A stretch of 31,509 bases of DNA from a virus. Shown piece after piece: positions 291 through 29,202 of the stretch (within the stretch, counting starts at the first letter, position 1; every line of letters starts with the position of its first letter). The stretch is taken from the IMG/VR virus record IMGVR_UViG_3300037493_003209, positions 1 through 31,509 of that record. One strand, 5' to 3'. A model generated the notes under the pieces. That model was not told the origin of the DNA. It made no database searches and saw only the letters and a program-made list of their open reading frames with translations. A program made the translations under genes and the position numbers.

Positions 291-746
291 ATGAGAGAAA
301 ATAAAATATATTGGTTTACTGGCCAACCTGGAGCAGGAAAGACAGTTTTGTCTTTAATGTTAAAAACAGTTTTAGAAACAGAACACAACGGTAAAATATT
401 TCATATTGATGGGGACGAACTCAGACGGTTATTTAATAACCAAAAATATGGTAGAGAAGGTCGTGAAGAGAACATAAAAAGAGCTCAAGACATTGCTAAG
501 TTTATTTTGGTTCAGGGTAATAGTGTTATTGTTAGTTTAGTTGCTCCATATAAAGAACTTAGAGAAAGTTTTAAAGAAGAGTTAGGTAACTTACTTGTGG
601 AGTTTTATGTTCATACAACAGACATTAGAGGTAGAGAACATTTCCATACTGACGAATATGAACAACCAACAGATAATTATGTGGATATTGATACAACAAA
701 CGTTAATCCTCAAATATCATTAAACAAAGTAATTGAAAATATATGA
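291..746 (+). CDS. cysC: Adenylylsulfate (APS) kinase, short phage form
   Basis: This 151-residue cytosolic kinase should phosphorylate APS with ATP to make PAPS. It has a P-loop GQPGAGKT (residues 11-18) after the typical WFTG strand. Further family motifs are DGDELR (40-45), the GREENIKRAQDIAKF helix (about 57-71) and VSLVAPYKELR (81-91), equivalent to the family's S-P-Y-R segment. It is shorter than the roughly 200-residue bacterial CysC. The lid region, usually containing a Lys/Arg-rich stretch and an F-T-G-I-D motif, is reduced. The start ATG follows the sulfotransferase stop by 3 bases, and the TGA stop overlaps the next ATG (ATGA), so the genes are probably one translationally coupled unit. 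Family assignment is secure; the specificity of the shortened lid is inferred. Confidence 0.87.
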   Translation: MRENKIYWFTGQPGAGKTVLSLMLKTVLETEHNGKIFHIDGDELRRLFNNQKYGREGREENIKRAQDIAKFILVQGNSVIVSLVAPYKELRESFKEELGNLLVEFYVHTTDIRGREHFHTDEYEQPTDNYVDIDTTNVNPQISLNKVIENI

Positions 747-1207
747 ATTGGGAAGTAAAAAATCACGGTGGGGAACCAACAAATAATTCGGATAAGAAAT
801 ATGCGATCTTTATTGGGAGATATCAACCACCACATTTTGGGCATTTAAATCTTATAGACCAAAAATTAAATGAAGGTGTTCCGGCACTTATAATGGTTAG
901 AGATATTGCTCCTGACGATAAAAATCCTTTTACTACAGAACAAACAGTTTCTATGTTAGAGAAATATTATCATTCAAAGAATAAAGATGTTAAGGTTATG
1001 GTTATTCCTGATATTGAGTCCGTTAATTATGGAAGAGGTGTTGGTTATGAAATAAATGAATTTACACCACCAGACAATATCGGATTTATTTCTGCAACAA
1101 AGGTAAGAGAATCAATAAAAAATGGTGAAGATGGGTGGAGAACTATGATTGATGATTCCATTCAAGACGATGTGATTAAATATTTATCTTATGAAATTAA
1201 CAATTAA
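743..1207 (+). CDS. HxGH-type nucleotidyltransferase (NMNAT / cytidylyltransferase-like)
   Basis: This 154-residue protein belongs to the HxGH nucleotidyltransferase superfamily. It shows GRYQPPHFGH (residues 25-34, HxGH motif in the NadM-like G-R-F-Q-P context) and ISATKVR (116-122), the second nucleotide-binding signature. A conserved-looking VNYGRGVGYEINE (94-106) sits between them. The family joins AMP or CMP to a small phosphate- or sulfate-type acceptor; ATP sulfurylase uses a related fold. Its ATGA overlap with APS kinase and closeness to a sulfotransferase suggest it could make APS. However, NMN adenylyltransferase activity fits the motifs at least as well. The first 17 residues are polar and precede the fold. 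The substrate cannot be decided from sequence alone. Confidence 0.72.
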   Translation: MNWEVKNHGGEPTNNSDKKYAIFIGRYQPPHFGHLNLIDQKLNEGVPALIMVRDIAPDDKNPFTTEQTVSMLEKYYHSKNKDVKVMVIPDIESVNYGRGVGYEINEFTPPDNIGFISATKVRESIKNGEDGWRTMIDDSIQDDVIKYLSYEINN

Positions 1208-14300: not shown

Positions 14301-14336
14301 TTAATTAGTTTTTTATTTTTATATAAAACTAATTAA
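14301..14336 (+). promoter_or_regulatory. Perfect 12-bp inverted repeat ending at a start codon
   Basis: TTAATTAGTTTT (14301-14312) and AAAACTAATTAA (14325-14336) are perfect inverted repeats around a 12-base AT loop. The right arm ends on the A of the glycosyltransferase ATG. In RNA the hairpin would cover the ribosome-binding region. It could be a translational switch, a weak terminator after the adhesin gene, or an operator. Confidence 0.4.
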
Positions 14337-15583
14337 TGAAGATTTTTATTCAAATTGCGTCCTATCGTGACCCCCAACTTATACCAACAATCAAAGATTG
14401 TATTGAGAAATCAAAAAACCCTGAAAATTTAAGGTTTGGTATTTGCAGACAATATCACCCTGAAGATGGTTTTGATAATTTATCTGAATATGAAAACGAT
14501 AACCGTTTCCGCATATTAAATGTTCCTCACGAAGAATCAACGGGAGTATGTTGGGCAAGAAACCAAGTACAACAACTATATAAGGGGGAAAAATATACAC
14601 TCCAATTAGATTCCCATATGAGGTTTGAACAGGATTGGGATAAGACCTTAATTAAGATGATTAAGGACTTACAAAAGAAAGGACATAAGAAACCATTATT
14701 AACGGGTTATGTGTCGTCGTTTGATCCTGAAAATGACCCACAGGGAAGGGTTACAGATCCTTGGAGAATGTCCTTTGATAGATTTACACCCGAAGGTGTT
14801 GTTTTCTTCTTACCTGAAGTAATTCCAAATTGGAAAGACCTATCAGGACCAATCCCATCAAGATTTTATTCAGCACACTTTGCATTCACATTAGGAGAGT
14901 TTTCAAAAGAAGTCCAACATGATCCCGAATATTATTTCCATGGGGAAGAAATATCAATTGCGGTAAGAGCATATACTCACGGGTATGATTTATTTCACCC
15001 ACATAAAGTTGTTATTTGGCATGAATATACTCGTAAAGGGAGAACCAAACAATGGGATGACGACAAGGAGTGGTATAAGAGAAATGAGTCTTGTCATAAG
15101 AAGAATAGACAAATATTGGGTATTGATGGTGAAACATATGAGGGAGATCTTGGTAAATATGGTTTTGGAACTGAAAGAACATTAAAAGATTATGAACAAT
15201 ATTCCGGAGTTTTATTCTCAAAACGAGCAGTTCAACAATATACAATTGATAAACAATACCCCCCAAACCCATATACATACAACACAGAAGAAGAATGGTT
15301 AGATAGTTTTACATCGGTATTCAAACATTGTATTGACGTATCGTTTAGTAGTGTCCCAGAGATGGATTATGATTTTTGGGTTGTCGCATTTCACAACGAA
15401 AAGGATGAAACATTACATAGACAAGATGCTGACCAACATGAAATAAATAGAATGAAACAAGATCCTGATGGTTATTGTAAAGTATGGAGAGAGTTTAATA
15501 CAACCGAAAAACCAAAGTATTGGGTTGTTTGGCCACATAGTTTATCAAAGGGGTGGTGTGATAGAATAACAGGGAATCTATAA
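14336..15583 (+). CDS. GT60-type glycosyltransferase (GlcNAc-transferase family)
   Basis: This 415-residue enzyme opens with the family signature IQIASYRDPQLIPTI (residues 5-19). LRFGICRQY (32-40), a glycine- and Trp-containing region ESTGVCWARN (67-76) and the metal-site-like LDSHMRF (91-97) follow. This pattern is that of the PF11397 family, which includes eukaryotic Skp1 hydroxyproline GlcNAc-transferases (GT60). Members move GlcNAc from UDP-GlcNAc to protein hydroxyls or other acceptors. Fold and family are fairly clear; donor and acceptor are inferred. Being directly downstream of Thr-Pro-rich virion proteins makes fibre O-glycosylation attractive, and modification of host glycans is the alternative. 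It is first of three coupled glycosyltransferase genes, with only 3 bases to the next. Confidence 0.77.
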   Translation: MKIFIQIASYRDPQLIPTIKDCIEKSKNPENLRFGICRQYHPEDGFDNLSEYENDNRFRILNVPHEESTGVCWARNQVQQLYKGEKYTLQLDSHMRFEQDWDKTLIKMIKDLQKKGHKKPLLTGYVSSFDPENDPQGRVTDPWRMSFDRFTPEGVVFFLPEVIPNWKDLSGPIPSRFYSAHFAFTLGEFSKEVQHDPEYYFHGEEISIAVRAYTHGYDLFHPHKVVIWHEYTRKGRTKQWDDDKEWYKRNESCHKKNRQILGIDGETYEGDLGKYGFGTERTLKDYEQYSGVLFSKRAVQQYTIDKQYPPNPYTYNTEEEWLDSFTSVFKHCIDVSFSSVPEMDYDFWVVAFHNEKDETLHRQDADQHEINRMKQDPDGYCKVWREFNTTEKPKYWVVWPHSLSKGWCDRITGNL

Positions 15584-25628: not shown

Positions 25629-25716
25629 TTAAATTATAGGTCTCTTCCAACTAATATCATATTTAGGGGTAAGCACGTCGGGTGTGAGTCCCCTTAAATT
25701 ATAGGTCTGTTCCAAC
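25629..25716 (-). repeat. CRISPR-like repeat-spacer unit D
   Basis: Minus strand: a 36-bp repeat (25681-25716) begins GTTGGAACAGACCTATAATT and ends GGGGACTCACACC. A 29-bp unique spacer (25652-25680) follows. Then comes a partial repeat (25629-25651: GTTGGAAGAGACCTATAATT and TAA) that ends with the gene's stop codon. The spacer is one base shorter than in the other three units. Confidence 0.6.
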
Positions 25717-25970
25717 CATATCGTTAGAATCTCCTCTGTTTGCAAGTCTTTCAGACCAAAAATGGATTCAAAAAATCCCCAAATTCTATGGTAATTTATA
25801 TAAACATACCCATTTTTTTCATCCTGGTAATAGTAAAATAATGGTTTTCTGTCCTTATCAACATAAAATGTCATATCACCTTTAACTATTTTAGTTAGAT
25901 TTCCAAACTCTTTGTTTAACCACTTTAATACCACTCTGTCTCTACTACTTTCAGTTATTATTATTTTCAT
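25629..25970 (-). CDS. Stand-alone WLNKEFG-domain protein, copy 1 (possible packaged protein)
   Basis: This 113-residue protein begins MKIIITES. It continues LKWLNKEFGNLTKIVKGD, TFYVDKDRKPLFYYYQD, YINYHRIWGFFESIFGL and WLEQTYNLRGLTP. The same roughly 90-residue domain occurs in the next gene and twice inside the 958-residue protein. No known family is recognised. The N-terminal I-T-E followed by Ser fits the I/L-x-E cleavage signal of T4-type prohead proteases on internal head proteins. The C-terminal residues DISWKRPII come from the repeat element at 25629-25651 read in a different frame. A one-base-shorter spacer (29 instead of 30) accounts for that. It is in the same frame as the upstream copy, separated by TAA AAA TAA. 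Confidence 0.7.
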   Translation of the reverse strand: MKIIITESSRDRVVLKWLNKEFGNLTKIVKGDMTFYVDKDRKPLFYYYQDEKNGYVYINYHRIWGFFESIFGLKDLQTEEILTIWLEQTYNLRGLTPDVLTPKYDISWKRPII

Positions 25971-26055
25971 ATTATAGGTTTCCTCCGACTGTTATTTTTA
26001 TATCATACGAGACACAACTGGCATGTGTCCCCTTAAATTATAGGTATCTTCCAAC
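25971..26055 (-). repeat. CRISPR-like repeat-spacer unit C
   Basis: Minus strand: a 36-bp repeat (26020-26055) begins GTTGGAAGATACCTATAATT and ends GGGGACACATGCC. A 30-bp unique spacer (25990-26019) follows, containing the gene's in-frame TAA AAA TAA. Then comes a truncated repeat (25971-25989: GTCGGAGGAAACCTATAAT) abutting the ATG of the next gene. Most of this unit after the stop is non-coding, yet the period stays at 66 bp. Confidence 0.6.
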
Positions 26056-26309
26056 CATATACTGAGTATATCCCTCGTTTGTGAGTCATCTAACCCAAAA
26101 ATGTTTTTAAAAAACGACCAAAGTCTTTCTCTATTTATAAACACAAACCCATTTTCAATATGCTGACGATAGAAAAATAACGGTCTTTGGTCTCTATCAA
26201 CATAAAATGTTTTATCACCTTTAACCTCCGGAGTTAAATCACCAAACTCTTTGTTTAACCAGTTTAAAACTAATTTATCTCTTTTACTTTCAGTTATTAT
26301 TATTTTCAT
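25998..26309 (-). CDS. Stand-alone WLNKEFG-domain protein, copy 2 (possible packaged protein)
   Basis: This 103-residue paralogue of the downstream gene begins MKIIITESKRDKLVLNWLNK. It continues with FGDLTPEVKGD, TFYVDRDQRPLFFYRQ, RLWSFFKNIFGLD and WLEDTYNLRG, ending VVSRMI. The domain is the same unrecognised module (see copy 1). The I-T-E-S at residues 5-8 aligns with the I-N-E-S that precedes each internal copy in the 958-residue protein, so the boundary motif is conserved whether or not it lies at a protein start. The final 18 residues are encoded by a repeat-spacer unit. The leader is a TATAT-rich stretch with no Shine-Dalgarno. Confidence 0.7.
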   Translation of the reverse strand: MKIIITESKRDKLVLNWLNKEFGDLTPEVKGDKTFYVDRDQRPLFFYRQHIENGFVFINRERLWSFFKNIFGLDDSQTRDILSIWLEDTYNLRGHMPVVSRMI

Positions 26310-26325
26310 ATTATATTATATTATA

Positions 26326-29202
26326 TTAATTAATAATTTGATATAACTTTTTATTGTAAAACTTAATCATTTCATTAATATATTCAGAATCACCAAGTTT
26401 TCCTAATTTATCTTTATAATATTGTATCCTTTCTTTATAATAATCTATTTCGTTTTCTTTATTCCTTGCAAGTTTTGGTTTGGCATCAATCTTTTCTGTT
26501 TCAATATGTACCTCAAACTCCATATTTGTATATATTGGATTTTCATAATAATATACAAAAAACTTAGGGAATGTCGTGGGGTTTGCCACAGTTTGTATTC
26601 TTGAGTAATCGTTTCTAAACATTATGTATTTATTCTTAGGTCTATCAACATAAAGAATAATATCAACATTAGATTCTTTATATTTATTATGATTATGCCA
26701 AGAAGGAACTTTATAATAATAACCCCTTTCGGATCCAAATTTTTCAATTAACGAATAATCAACCGGTTTAACTTGCACAAAATAAGAAGTCCCATCAATT
26801 ATCACATCAAAATCTTGACCTAATTTTCTATCCCTAACATCACCAGCACATCTTTCTATAATACTCCAAGTAAGACCTTCTTCATCAGGGTTTAATTTAA
26901 ATTTGTTTATTATAACCGTTTTTGCATAACTTTCATTTTCTCTACCAGTTAAAATAGTGTTTTTATTTATATCAACCAATCTTTCGGTAAATCTACCTTT
27001 GTCACCAACTAGTTCTCCAATGTTGTTTGTGATCCATTTTCTAAAATTTTCCGTAGAATTAGTCTCTTCAGACCAAATTTTTTGAATTTCTTTATGTACC
27101 GAACTATTTGTATCAAATCTGTTTATGATCGACCAATTACCATTACCACCATAATTTTGTTCTGAATATTTACCACCAATAATTCCCTCATCAGTTTTAC
27201 ATTGTTCTGTCTCAATTTTCCCTAAACAACCGTTTGTGTATTTTAAACCTTCACATTTAGGGTAAGCATTGTTTATTAAACTTCTAAAAGATTTTGAGGT
27301 TAATGGGAAGACTTCTTTATTTTCAGATAAAATAAAATGTTCGTTAATTGTTTCTGAATTATAGTTCTCATCCAACGGAGTGAACTGAAATCTTGAAAAA
27401 TTAACGGGTGTGAACCCCCCCAAATTATAGGTATCTTGCAACCATATACTCAGTATATCCTCAATTTGTGAGTGATCTAAACCAAAAATGTCTTCAAAAA
27501 ATACCCAAATTCTGTTGTAATTTATATAAACGAGATCATTTTCACTTTTAAACCAACCATGGTAATAGTAAAATAATGGTAATCTGTCTTTATTAACATA
27601 AAATGTTTTATCATCTTTAATTACCGGTGTAAGATCACCAAACTCCTTGTTTAACCATTTTAATGCCAATTTTGTTTTATGATCAACCGATTCATTAATT
27701 GATTCTGAATTATAGGTATCCTCCAACATATTGTCCTCCACAGAGCAAATAAGTCGCGGTGTGGTTCCCCTTAAATTATAGGTCTCATCCAACACAAACG
27801 ATGTGTTGGTAAAATTAAATGAGGGTGTGGTTCCCCTTAAATTATAGGTTTCATCCAACCATTTATTAATAATATCCTGTGTTTGATTGTATTCCATACC
27901 AAAAATGGATTCAAAAAATACCCACATTCTTTCGTAACTTATATAAACATTCCCTTTTTTTGAATCCTGAAAATATAAAAATAACGGTCTTCGGTCTTCA
28001 TCAACATAAAATGTTTTATCACCCTTAACCAACGGAGTTAAATTACCAAATTTCTTGTTTAACCATTTTAATGCCGATTTTTCTTTATGATTAACCGATT
28101 CATTAATTGTTTCTTTTTTACTTGTTCTCAAGTCATAAAGACTAGTAACGAAATCCCAATTAATATGGTTCCAAAATTTATTAATATATTGATCTCTTTT
28201 ATTTTTATATCTTAAATAATAAGCGTGTTCCCAAAGATCTAACCCAAGTATTGGATATCCACCATTAACAACATTCATTAATGGGTTATCTTGGTTTGGT
28301 GTGGTCATAATTTTTAATCTATTGGTTTTTGTTAAAACCAACCATGCCCAACCTGAACCAAAACTATCTAAAGAGGCTTTATTAAATTCTTCTTTAAATT
28401 TTTTAAATGATCCGTATTGATTTGTTATTTTATCTAAAAGATCTCCCTTTAAGTTTTGTTTGTTTGGTGATAACATCTTCCAAAACAATGCATGATTAAA
28501 TGCTCCACCGGCATTGTTTCTAACCTTTGTATTAAATTTACTTATGGTTTTAATAATATCCTCAAGTTCCATTTCACCCTTTCTACTTGATAGAGCATCA
28601 TTTAATTTTTTCACATAACCTTTATAATGTTTGTTATAATGAATATCCATAGTTTCAGGATCAACAAATTGTTTTAATGCCGAATATGTGTAAGGTAATT
28701 TCTCAATACCGATTTTTTTCATTTCGGTAATGAATTCTTTTTGAATATTAATTTTATCTGATAACACAATTTGTTCCGTTAAAACATCCAATCTATTTGA
28801 AATTGATTTTAATCCCTCATAAATCATCTCAGACATTTCGGGGTGATCCTTCTCAAAAATTTTAATTAATCTTCCCGCACCAGCATTTGCTTCATCCTCA
28901 TTTTTGCCACCAATATCTTGACCTACATCCCTTTTAAGGATGGTCATTTGGTATTCGTGAATCCATTCGTGAGCAAGGGTTCTTAAGATATCTCGGTTCA
29001 ACCGACCTTTAGTTAAGATTTTAATTCCAAATTCAACACTTCTACTACCAGTCGTCATTTGACCTGTACGTTCCCCCAAAAAAGAAACTAAAATATCATT
29101 CTTTAATGGGTATTTTTCATTTAAAAACTTAATAAATTTTTTGGCAAGATCCTTACTTTCTTGGGTCATTGAGCATTTAATATGTTTAATTGATATTTTC
29201 AT
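26326..29202 (-). CDS. Multidomain zincin - superoxide dismutase - WLNKEFG domain x2 - PD-(D/E)XK-like protein
   Basis: This 958-residue protein has five visible parts. (1) A zincin-like peptidase at about 1-150, with AHEWIHEY (H78, E79, H82) and NEDEAN (E102/E104, possible third ligand). (2) A complete Fe/Mn superoxide dismutase at about 165-357. Metal ligands H188, H237, D322 and H326 lie in MDIHYNKHYKGY, NNAGGAFNHALFW and LDLWEHAYYL; Y196 is the gateway Tyr. G233/Q304 (PNQDNPLM) look more Mn-like. (3) and (4) Two WLNKEFG domains (369-460, 505-600), paralogous to the two small downstream genes. (5) A C-terminal nuclease-like domain with ENESYAK, GQDFDVIIDG (D799) and VQVK (Q810-x-K812), like Mrr-type D...QxK sites. 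I-x-E motifs precede each domain (E160, E368, E504, E621). It may be processed and packaged in the head; this is unproven. Confidence 0.82.
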   Translation of the reverse strand: MKISIKHIKCSMTQESKDLAKKFIKFLNEKYPLKNDILVSFLGERTGQMTTGSRSVEFGIKILTKGRLNRDILRTLAHEWIHEYQMTILKRDVGQDIGGKNEDEANAGAGRLIKIFEKDHPEMSEMIYEGLKSISNRLDVLTEQIVLSDKINIQKEFITEMKKIGIEKLPYTYSALKQFVDPETMDIHYNKHYKGYVKKLNDALSSRKGEMELEDIIKTISKFNTKVRNNAGGAFNHALFWKMLSPNKQNLKGDLLDKITNQYGSFKKFKEEFNKASLDSFGSGWAWLVLTKTNRLKIMTTPNQDNPLMNVVNGGYPILGLDLWEHAYYLRYKNKRDQYINKFWNHINWDFVTSLYDLRTSKKETINESVNHKEKSALKWLNKKFGNLTPLVKGDKTFYVDEDRRPLFLYFQDSKKGNVYISYERMWVFFESIFGMEYNQTQDIINKWLDETYNLRGTTPSFNFTNTSFVLDETYNLRGTTPRLICSVEDNMLEDTYNSESINESVDHKTKLALKWLNKEFGDLTPVIKDDKTFYVNKDRLPLFYYYHGWFKSENDLVYINYNRIWVFFEDIFGLDHSQIEDILSIWLQDTYNLGGFTPVNFSRFQFTPLDENYNSETINEHFILSENKEVFPLTSKSFRSLINNAYPKCEGLKYTNGCLGKIETEQCKTDEGIIGGKYSEQNYGGNGNWSIINRFDTNSSVHKEIQKIWSEETNSTENFRKWITNNIGELVGDKGRFTERLVDINKNTILTGRENESYAKTVIINKFKLNPDEEGLTWSIIERCAGDVRDRKLGQDFDVIIDGTSYFVQVKPVDYSLIEKFGSERGYYYKVPSWHNHNKYKESNVDIILYVDRPKNKYIMFRNDYSRIQTVANPTTFPKFFVYYYENPIYTNMEFEVHIETEKIDAKPKLARNKENEIDYYKERIQYYKDKLGKLGDSEYINEMIKFYNKKLYQIIN
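27357..27442 (-). repeat. CRISPR-like repeat-spacer unit B
   Basis: Minus strand: a 36-bp repeat (27407-27442) begins GTTGCAAGATACCTATAATT and ends GGGGTTCACACC. A 30-bp unique spacer (27377-27406) follows. Then comes a truncated repeat (27357-27376: GTTGGATGAGAACTATAATT) running into the I-N-E boundary of the nuclease-like domain. It is in frame and translated as TYNLGGFTP, ten unrelated residues, then LDENYN. Confidence 0.6.
27708..27859 (-). CRISPR. CRISPR-like mini-array A: two full 36-bp repeats, two 30-bp spacers, one truncated repeat
   Basis: Minus strand: repeat 27824-27859, spacer 27794-27823, repeat 27758-27793, spacer 27728-27757, truncated repeat 27708-27727. The two full repeats differ at one base. 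They begin GTTGGATGA, share ACCTATAATTTAAGGGGAAC and end CACACC. The spacers are unrelated to each other. The period is exactly 66 bp. The last repeat loses its 3' half, as terminal CRISPR repeats often do. The array lies inside the 958-residue coding frame and is translated as LDETYNLRGTTP plus ten variable residues, so it may instead be a coding minisatellite. No cas gene is seen in the window, and the match to known CRISPR repeats could not be tested. Confidence 0.35.

Follow-up and report, generated by a model that had tools for sequence, protein, structure and literature searches.

The locus described here raises the question of whether the short repeats at the ends of a phage gene family are simply part of the proteins or form arrays of the kind known as clustered regularly interspaced short palindromic repeats (CRISPR). 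It lies in a stretch of viral DNA of 31,509 nucleotides (nt), positions 1 to 31,509 of the IMG/VR virus record IMGVR_UViG_3300037493_003209, and this whole stretch is referred to below as the window. A preliminary description, made from the sequence alone, had placed four repeat-spacer mini-arrays on the minus strand, at the ends of a phage domain family. Our analysis confirmed the positions and spacings in the window sequence, and the four domain copies found with a hidden Markov model (HMM) end in the repeats of arrays A to D, respectively. The arrays comprise five full 36-nt repeats (starting at 27859, 27793, 27442, 26055, and 25716), four truncated repeats (starting at 27727, 27376, 25989, and 25651) and spacers of 30 nt with a single exception of 29 nt (D1), so that repeats follow each other at 66, 66, 66, 66, and 65 nt. 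The ending CACACC, described for most repeats, was found in the full repeats with one correction: the repeat at 26055 ends in CATGCC. We have little doubt about their nature as CRISPR-like arrays, which are anchored where the genes of a phage family end.

Relatives were sought among the IMG/VR viral contigs. A scan for the domain, confirmed by tblastn, gave 25 loci, and a search with a DNA pattern of the repeat yielded 33 stretches, a few of them unrelated single chance matches; the fetched pieces were joined into 29 contigs, the window included. Results showed that these contigs hold 41 non-redundant arrays, with up to seven spacers each, and 77 distinct spacers. The identical repeat type recurs with different spacers across more than 30 related viral contigs, and for this reason the repeat pattern is not a product of chance. 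On one contig (G004, L009/L071; 3960–4428) eight repeat copies enclose seven spacers and repeats 1–7 are identical; G008 carries five identical repeats, and in G328 one diverged repeat accompanies four identical ones. The repeat is modelled as GTTGGARGAGACCTATAATTTRAGGGGANTCACACC. A scan of 657 kb with a sequence model returned at E < 0.002 array copies and truncated ends only. Next below were a decayed copy at a domain gene end in L139 (E 0.0022) and then weaker remnants. The last repeat is short of about 13 terminal nt in the main family and full length or almost so in distant families (G021, G022, G332, and G333).

The first repeat follows directly after the TGG codon of the domain, which is about 77 residues long, and encodes its C-terminus (W followed by LEETYNLRGxTP). 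If the duplicated domain simply ended in a coding minisatellite of the usual kind, with a period of 22 residues, this would account for arrays A and B, which are in frame and translated within the open reading frame (ORF) 26326–29202, and some paralogs without arrays likewise end in loosely YNLxG-like residues. Most units, however, are not multiples of three: the 74 spacers measured have lengths of 28 (1), 29 (17), 30 (30), 31 (19), 32 (6), and 33 nt (1), with a mode of 30, and 43 of them (58%) shift the frame while 31 keep it. Repeat copies occur in any of the three frames or are untranslated, with many units past a stop, and one and the same 36-nt repeat is translated, depending on the copy, as LEETYNLRG, VGRDL-stop or WKRPII-stop. 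The preliminary description had rightly called part of the pattern non-coding (unit C) or read in another frame (unit D): the second repeat of array C lies past a stop codon, directly 5′ of the ATG of the next gene, and that of array D is translated as SWKRPII-stop in another frame. Moreover, the repeats are identical while the spacers are unrelated. A minisatellite as the sole cause, which the preliminary description had kept as its alternative, was rejected by frames, stops and unit lengths, and we regard this explanation as highly improbable; the first unit of each array is still coding.

Within an array, repeats differ on average at 0.81 of 36 nt, and 58 of 89 pairs are identical; the first repeats of different arrays are on average 5.9 nt apart. 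Spacers are mutually unrelated, as described at first, with identities of 30% within an array vs. 29% between arrays. Near-identical repeats next to unrelated spacers therefore indicate copying of the repeat with a new insert each time. Duplication followed by spacer divergence was rejected, as spacers are equally unlike within and between arrays. An exception was observed in G005 (69778–70111, minus strand, in L115), where three adjacent spacers share ACTTGG near their start. One repeat of the same array combines two array types, and this hybrid points to recombination between arrays.

The arrays are also polar with respect to the gene. Mismatches to the first repeat climb away from the gene (0, 0, 0, 2, 4; 0, 0, 0, 0, 3; and 0, 0, 1, 0, 2), and related loci have far-end spacers in common and differ in the gene-side ones (G006/G014/G017; G322 and the window). 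The far-end spacer TTAACCTTCCCAAATATG is found in G006, G014, and G017, and AGTTGTGTCTCGTATGATATAAAAATAACA or a near copy of it in the window, G001, G003, G005, and G322. It is as if units had been added at the gene side with copying of the repeat, like spacer insertion in CRISPR. Signs of growth at the leader end and a degenerate far end, by which CRISPR arrays are recognized, are both seen here.

A likeness to the repeats of type VI-B arrays (Cas13b; Bacteroidota) had been proposed, and it was upheld for both the repeat letters and the geometry of 36 plus 30 nt. For the comparison, Cas13b genes were located by profile in 3 of 396 genomes of one order, the family was confirmed, and the repeats were read nearby. 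Phage and VI-B repeats are identical at 16–25 of 36 positions in ungapped comparison, and VI-B repeats from different genomes at 18–26; measured against VI-B repeats alone, the phage repeats are thus VI-B-like in sequence, with two comparisons, at 16/36, below the range of VI-B itself. The VI-B repeat of G443, found via its Cas13b gene and independently of any repeat pattern, agrees with phage repeats at 23–25 of 36 positions, which none of 20,000 dinucleotide shuffles attained; the repeats of G232 were first found with a pattern written for VI-B repeats and are less independent. Three of the four VI-B repeats examined have the ends GTTG...ACAAC, and those of the phages GTTG...ACACC; repeats of 36 nt, spacers of about 30 nt and a period of about 66 nt are common to both. 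In these comparisons the phage repeat is VI-B-like in letters and spacing, and not in predicted structure.

The codons of the repeat are atypical for these phages (ACC in 41 of 44 cases, AGG in 33 of 33). In domain pairs that are 30–50% identical, the fraction of identical codons is 0.71–0.75 in the repeat vs. 0.62–0.65 elsewhere. This retention lends weak support to a constraint on DNA or RNA, and it is graded as weak because the excess is missing in the most distant and in the closest pairs.

To explain these features, we propose that the 36-nt end of the gene family would act like a CRISPR repeat, with the 3′ part of the gene in the place of the leader. Beside the gene, DNA pieces some 30 bp long would be inserted repeatedly, with duplication of the repeat, giving (repeat-spacer)n with a decayed last repeat. 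The inserter would be an integrase of the Cas1-Cas2 type that acts in trans and is most likely supplied by a host with a II-C/VI-B system that accepts the look-alike; it is placed in trans because no such gene was found on the contigs. We give this origin, CRISPR-type insertion in trans, about an even chance. Least certain is what the phage would gain, which may be VI-B-like RNA decoys or guides, a rewritten C-terminal tail of the domain protein, or both. A protein role of the first array units is possible, and between an RNA role, a protein-tail role and both we are undecided. Our more specific proposal, that gene 3′ ends would serve as leader plus repeat and that each 30-bp capture would extend a cas-less VI-B-like array and rewrite the protein tail, is advanced tentatively and at well below even chances. 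We know of no precedent for a dual RNA/protein diversification device of such kind.

Several observations weigh against insertion by CRISPR machinery. No Cas1, Cas2 or Cas13b was found on 22 contigs, which are fragments; CRISPR arrays without cas genes do exist. The repeat was not found in 296 + 396 sampled genomes, the search of the 396 having had no positive control. No protospacer was detected in INPHARED, in PLSDB (22 spacers searched), in IMG/VR (four spacers searched), or in about 1.1 Mb of these phages' own DNA. Recombination between arrays could be a partial source of the gene-end polarity. The remaining two points, the structure of the repeat and the reading frame of the spacers, each bear on a different alternative and are taken up with it. 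A candidate origin of the spacers in the phage's own genome was rejected, with no full-length match in contigs of 107–150 kb.

The VI-B repeat hairpin (pairs 1–5/32–36 and 11–15/22–26) was found incomplete: six of its ten pairs are kept (1/36, 3/34, 4/33, 12/25, 13/24, and 14/23), and pairs 2/35, 5/32, 11/26, and 15/22 are disrupted in almost every copy. Folding of the repeat RNA was no better than that of shuffles. No Rfam family was found in the window region, and L071 gave one sub-threshold Rfam match, to CRISPR-DR8 (E 0.73). Of the initial interpretation, then, the VI-B-like array at the DNA level stood, and no cas genes in cis, protospacers or complete hairpin were found with it. One alternative is an RNA mimic against type VI-B, similar to an RNA anti-CRISPR, in which the repeats would be transcribed with the gene and would occupy Cas13b or CRISPR RNA (crRNA) processing of the host, the spacers being incidental or directed at competitors. 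The sequence and geometry of the repeats fit such a role. Phage RNA anti-CRISPRs (Racrs) are known for other types, and a survey of these and of solitary repeat units covers every CRISPR type except type VI, the sole one missing (PMC10651486). It was also documented that overexpressed extraneous VI-B crRNA can sequester Cas13b, which lowers phage defence (PMC13187072). However, tight Cas13b binding requires a free repeat hairpin, and binding is about tenfold weaker when the hairpin is blocked (PMC13187072). The broken hairpin of the phage repeat therefore disfavours strong binding by Cas13b, and we consider RNA mimicry an unlikely explanation.

The reading frame of the spacers bears on diversification of the protein tail. 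In this alternative each inserted 30-mer would take the place of the variable tail that follows LRGxTP, and older tails would be kept in the array as a by-product or a reservoir for recombination between repeats. Untranslated spacers are open in the frame of the domain in 26 of 32 cases vs. 17.3 ± 2.6 in dinucleotide shuffles (P ~0.001), with no such excess in the other two frames of that test. This depletion of stops counts against plain CRISPR arrays because crRNA spacers need not be open. It fits a history in which each spacer would once have adjoined the gene and been translated, with stops being purged. The first repeat does encode the domain end, arrays A and B of the window are translated inside one long ORF, and repeats may have recombined with each other, as hybrid repeats and shared terminal units suggest. 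On the other hand, the frame-shifting majority of the spacers and the many units past a stop speak against it, the tails show no clear codon-position pattern in the frame of the domain, and the length of about 30 nt and the insertion agent are left unexplained. We therefore consider tail diversification rather doubtful as an explanation.

In other frames, chiefly those of the reverse strand, the spacers also have fewer interruptions than shuffles (z = 3.3 without the frame of the domain), and this signal vanishes once stops are ignored; it is at most suggestive of spacers being fragments of coding DNA. Across all arrays, we also observed fewer A residues than expected at positions 7 and 8 of the spacers (8/71 and 14/71 vs. 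about 23; chi-square P 0.001 and 0.0002, uncorrected for the many positions tested).

The domain on which the arrays are anchored occurs in about 60 copies across the collected contigs, standalone or at the C-terminus of other proteins. Fusion partners are a superoxide dismutase (SOD) in the window (Pfam E-values of 4e-40 and 3e-21) and a DHH-like protein in G004 and others, the latter label being our reading by eye, with no Pfam match. No convincing E-value was obtained for the domain in Pfam, PHROGs or NCBIfam. Its AlphaFold2 model is fairly confident (mean predicted local distance difference test score of 85). Good structural matches were to uncharacterised proteins of uncultured phages only (best E 1e-7), with several in BFVD sharing the fold, and nothing convincing was found in the PDB. 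In the 123-kb phage contig G323 (L159–L165) the domain has eight or more diverged paralogs, with arrays on two only; the end of its array-less paralogs is merely loosely similar (WLKVNYNLGELSP). One array-less paralog in G007 has a decayed repeat copy.

In the window, MKIIITES or INES motifs are seen at the domain starts at 25970 and 26309 (minus strand) and at the joints between domains in the 958-residue ORF. They resemble the IxE sites at which prohead proteases of the T4 type cleave, which suggests that the products may be internal virion proteins or a cleaved polyprotein. The HEWIHE motif of the same ORF we take, by eye, to be zinc-protease-like. The coordinates of all these features are given in Table 1.

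Table 1. Domain copies and array elements in the window (minus-strand elements read from the higher to the lower coordinate)
Feature	Positions	Strand	Remarks
958-aa ORF	26326–29202	-	N-terminal HEWIHE region, Fe/Mn superoxide dismutase, two domain + array units, C-terminal region without family
Domain copy 1 (HMM, ~77 aa)	27838–28068	-	in SOD-fusion ORF; ends in repeat A
Array A, full repeat 1	27824–27859	-	GTTGGATGAAACCTATAATTTAAGGGGAACCACACC, coding LDETYNLRGTTP
Spacer A1	27794–27823	-	30 nt
Array A, full repeat 2	27758–27793	-	
Spacer A2	27728–27757	-	30 nt
Array A, truncated terminal repeat	27708–27727	-	in frame, leading to next IxES motif (NSESINES)
Domain copy 2 (HMM)	27421–27660	-	in SOD-fusion ORF; ends in repeat B
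Array B, full repeat	27407–27442	-	GTTGCAAGATACC...
Spacer B1	27377–27406	-	30 nt, translated; like the spacer at the equivalent place in G001 and G003
Array B, truncated terminal repeat	27357–27376	-	
Domain copy 3 (HMM)	26034–26264	-	ORF 25998–26309; ends in repeat C
Array C, full repeat	26020–26055	-	
Spacer C1	25990–26019	-	30 nt, holds stop of upstream ORF; kept in G001, G003, G005, G322
Array C, truncated terminal repeat	25971–25989	-	adjoins ATG of next domain gene
Domain copy 4 (HMM)	25695–25925	-	ORF 25629–25970; ends in repeat D
Array D, full repeat	25681–25716	-	
Spacer D1	25652–25680	-	29 nt
Array D, truncated terminal repeat	25629–25651	-	other frame (WKRPII, stop)

The window also encodes a family B DNA polymerase, a match to a phage head-tail adaptor family and a GIY-YIG endonuclease. 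Genes resembling adenosine 5′-phosphosulfate (APS) kinase and a cytidylyltransferase are adjacent at 291–1207 (plus strand), and an N-acetylglucosamine (GlcNAc) glycosyltransferase gene is located at 14336–15583. Outside the window, L168 (2–7019, plus strand) has two long phage structural ORFs, terminase- and portal-like by eye, seemingly with intein-like inserts.

To our knowledge, these would be the first arrays known to grow where the coding part of a protein gene ends. Unlike bacterial type VI-B arrays, those of the phages have no cas13b nearby and a partly broken hairpin, no host array with their repeat was found, and the end of a conserved phage gene extends into their first repeat. Virus-borne mini-CRISPR arrays (PMC6858448) are likewise short and CRISPR-like, and the phage contigs studied here lack cas genes; in our case, however, there are several arrays per phage, each on a paralogous gene, with neither a protospacer match nor a host repeat known. 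Solitary repeat units and RNA anti-CRISPRs (PMC10651486) are also look-alikes of CRISPR repeats on phages without cas genes, yet the elements described here have multiple repeats, spacers of set length and a coding first repeat. A parallel may be proposed with Flavobacterium columnare, whose VI-B array acquires spacers in trans via the II-C machinery (PMC8092290): in both, an array without its own cas1 and cas2 would receive spacers from machinery in trans. In F. columnare, where the VI-B system has the flanking motif TTTA-N5 (PMC8092290), spacers were however seen to be acquired, and by a bacterial array, whereas acquisition in trans by the phage arrays is our inference. Phage look-alikes of VI-B repeats would fill the type VI gap in the survey of repeat look-alikes (PMC10651486). 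The arrays would offer a direct way to ask whether phage genomes are written into by the adaptation machinery of the host, and whether such insertion serves the phages in defence, counter-defence or protein variation.

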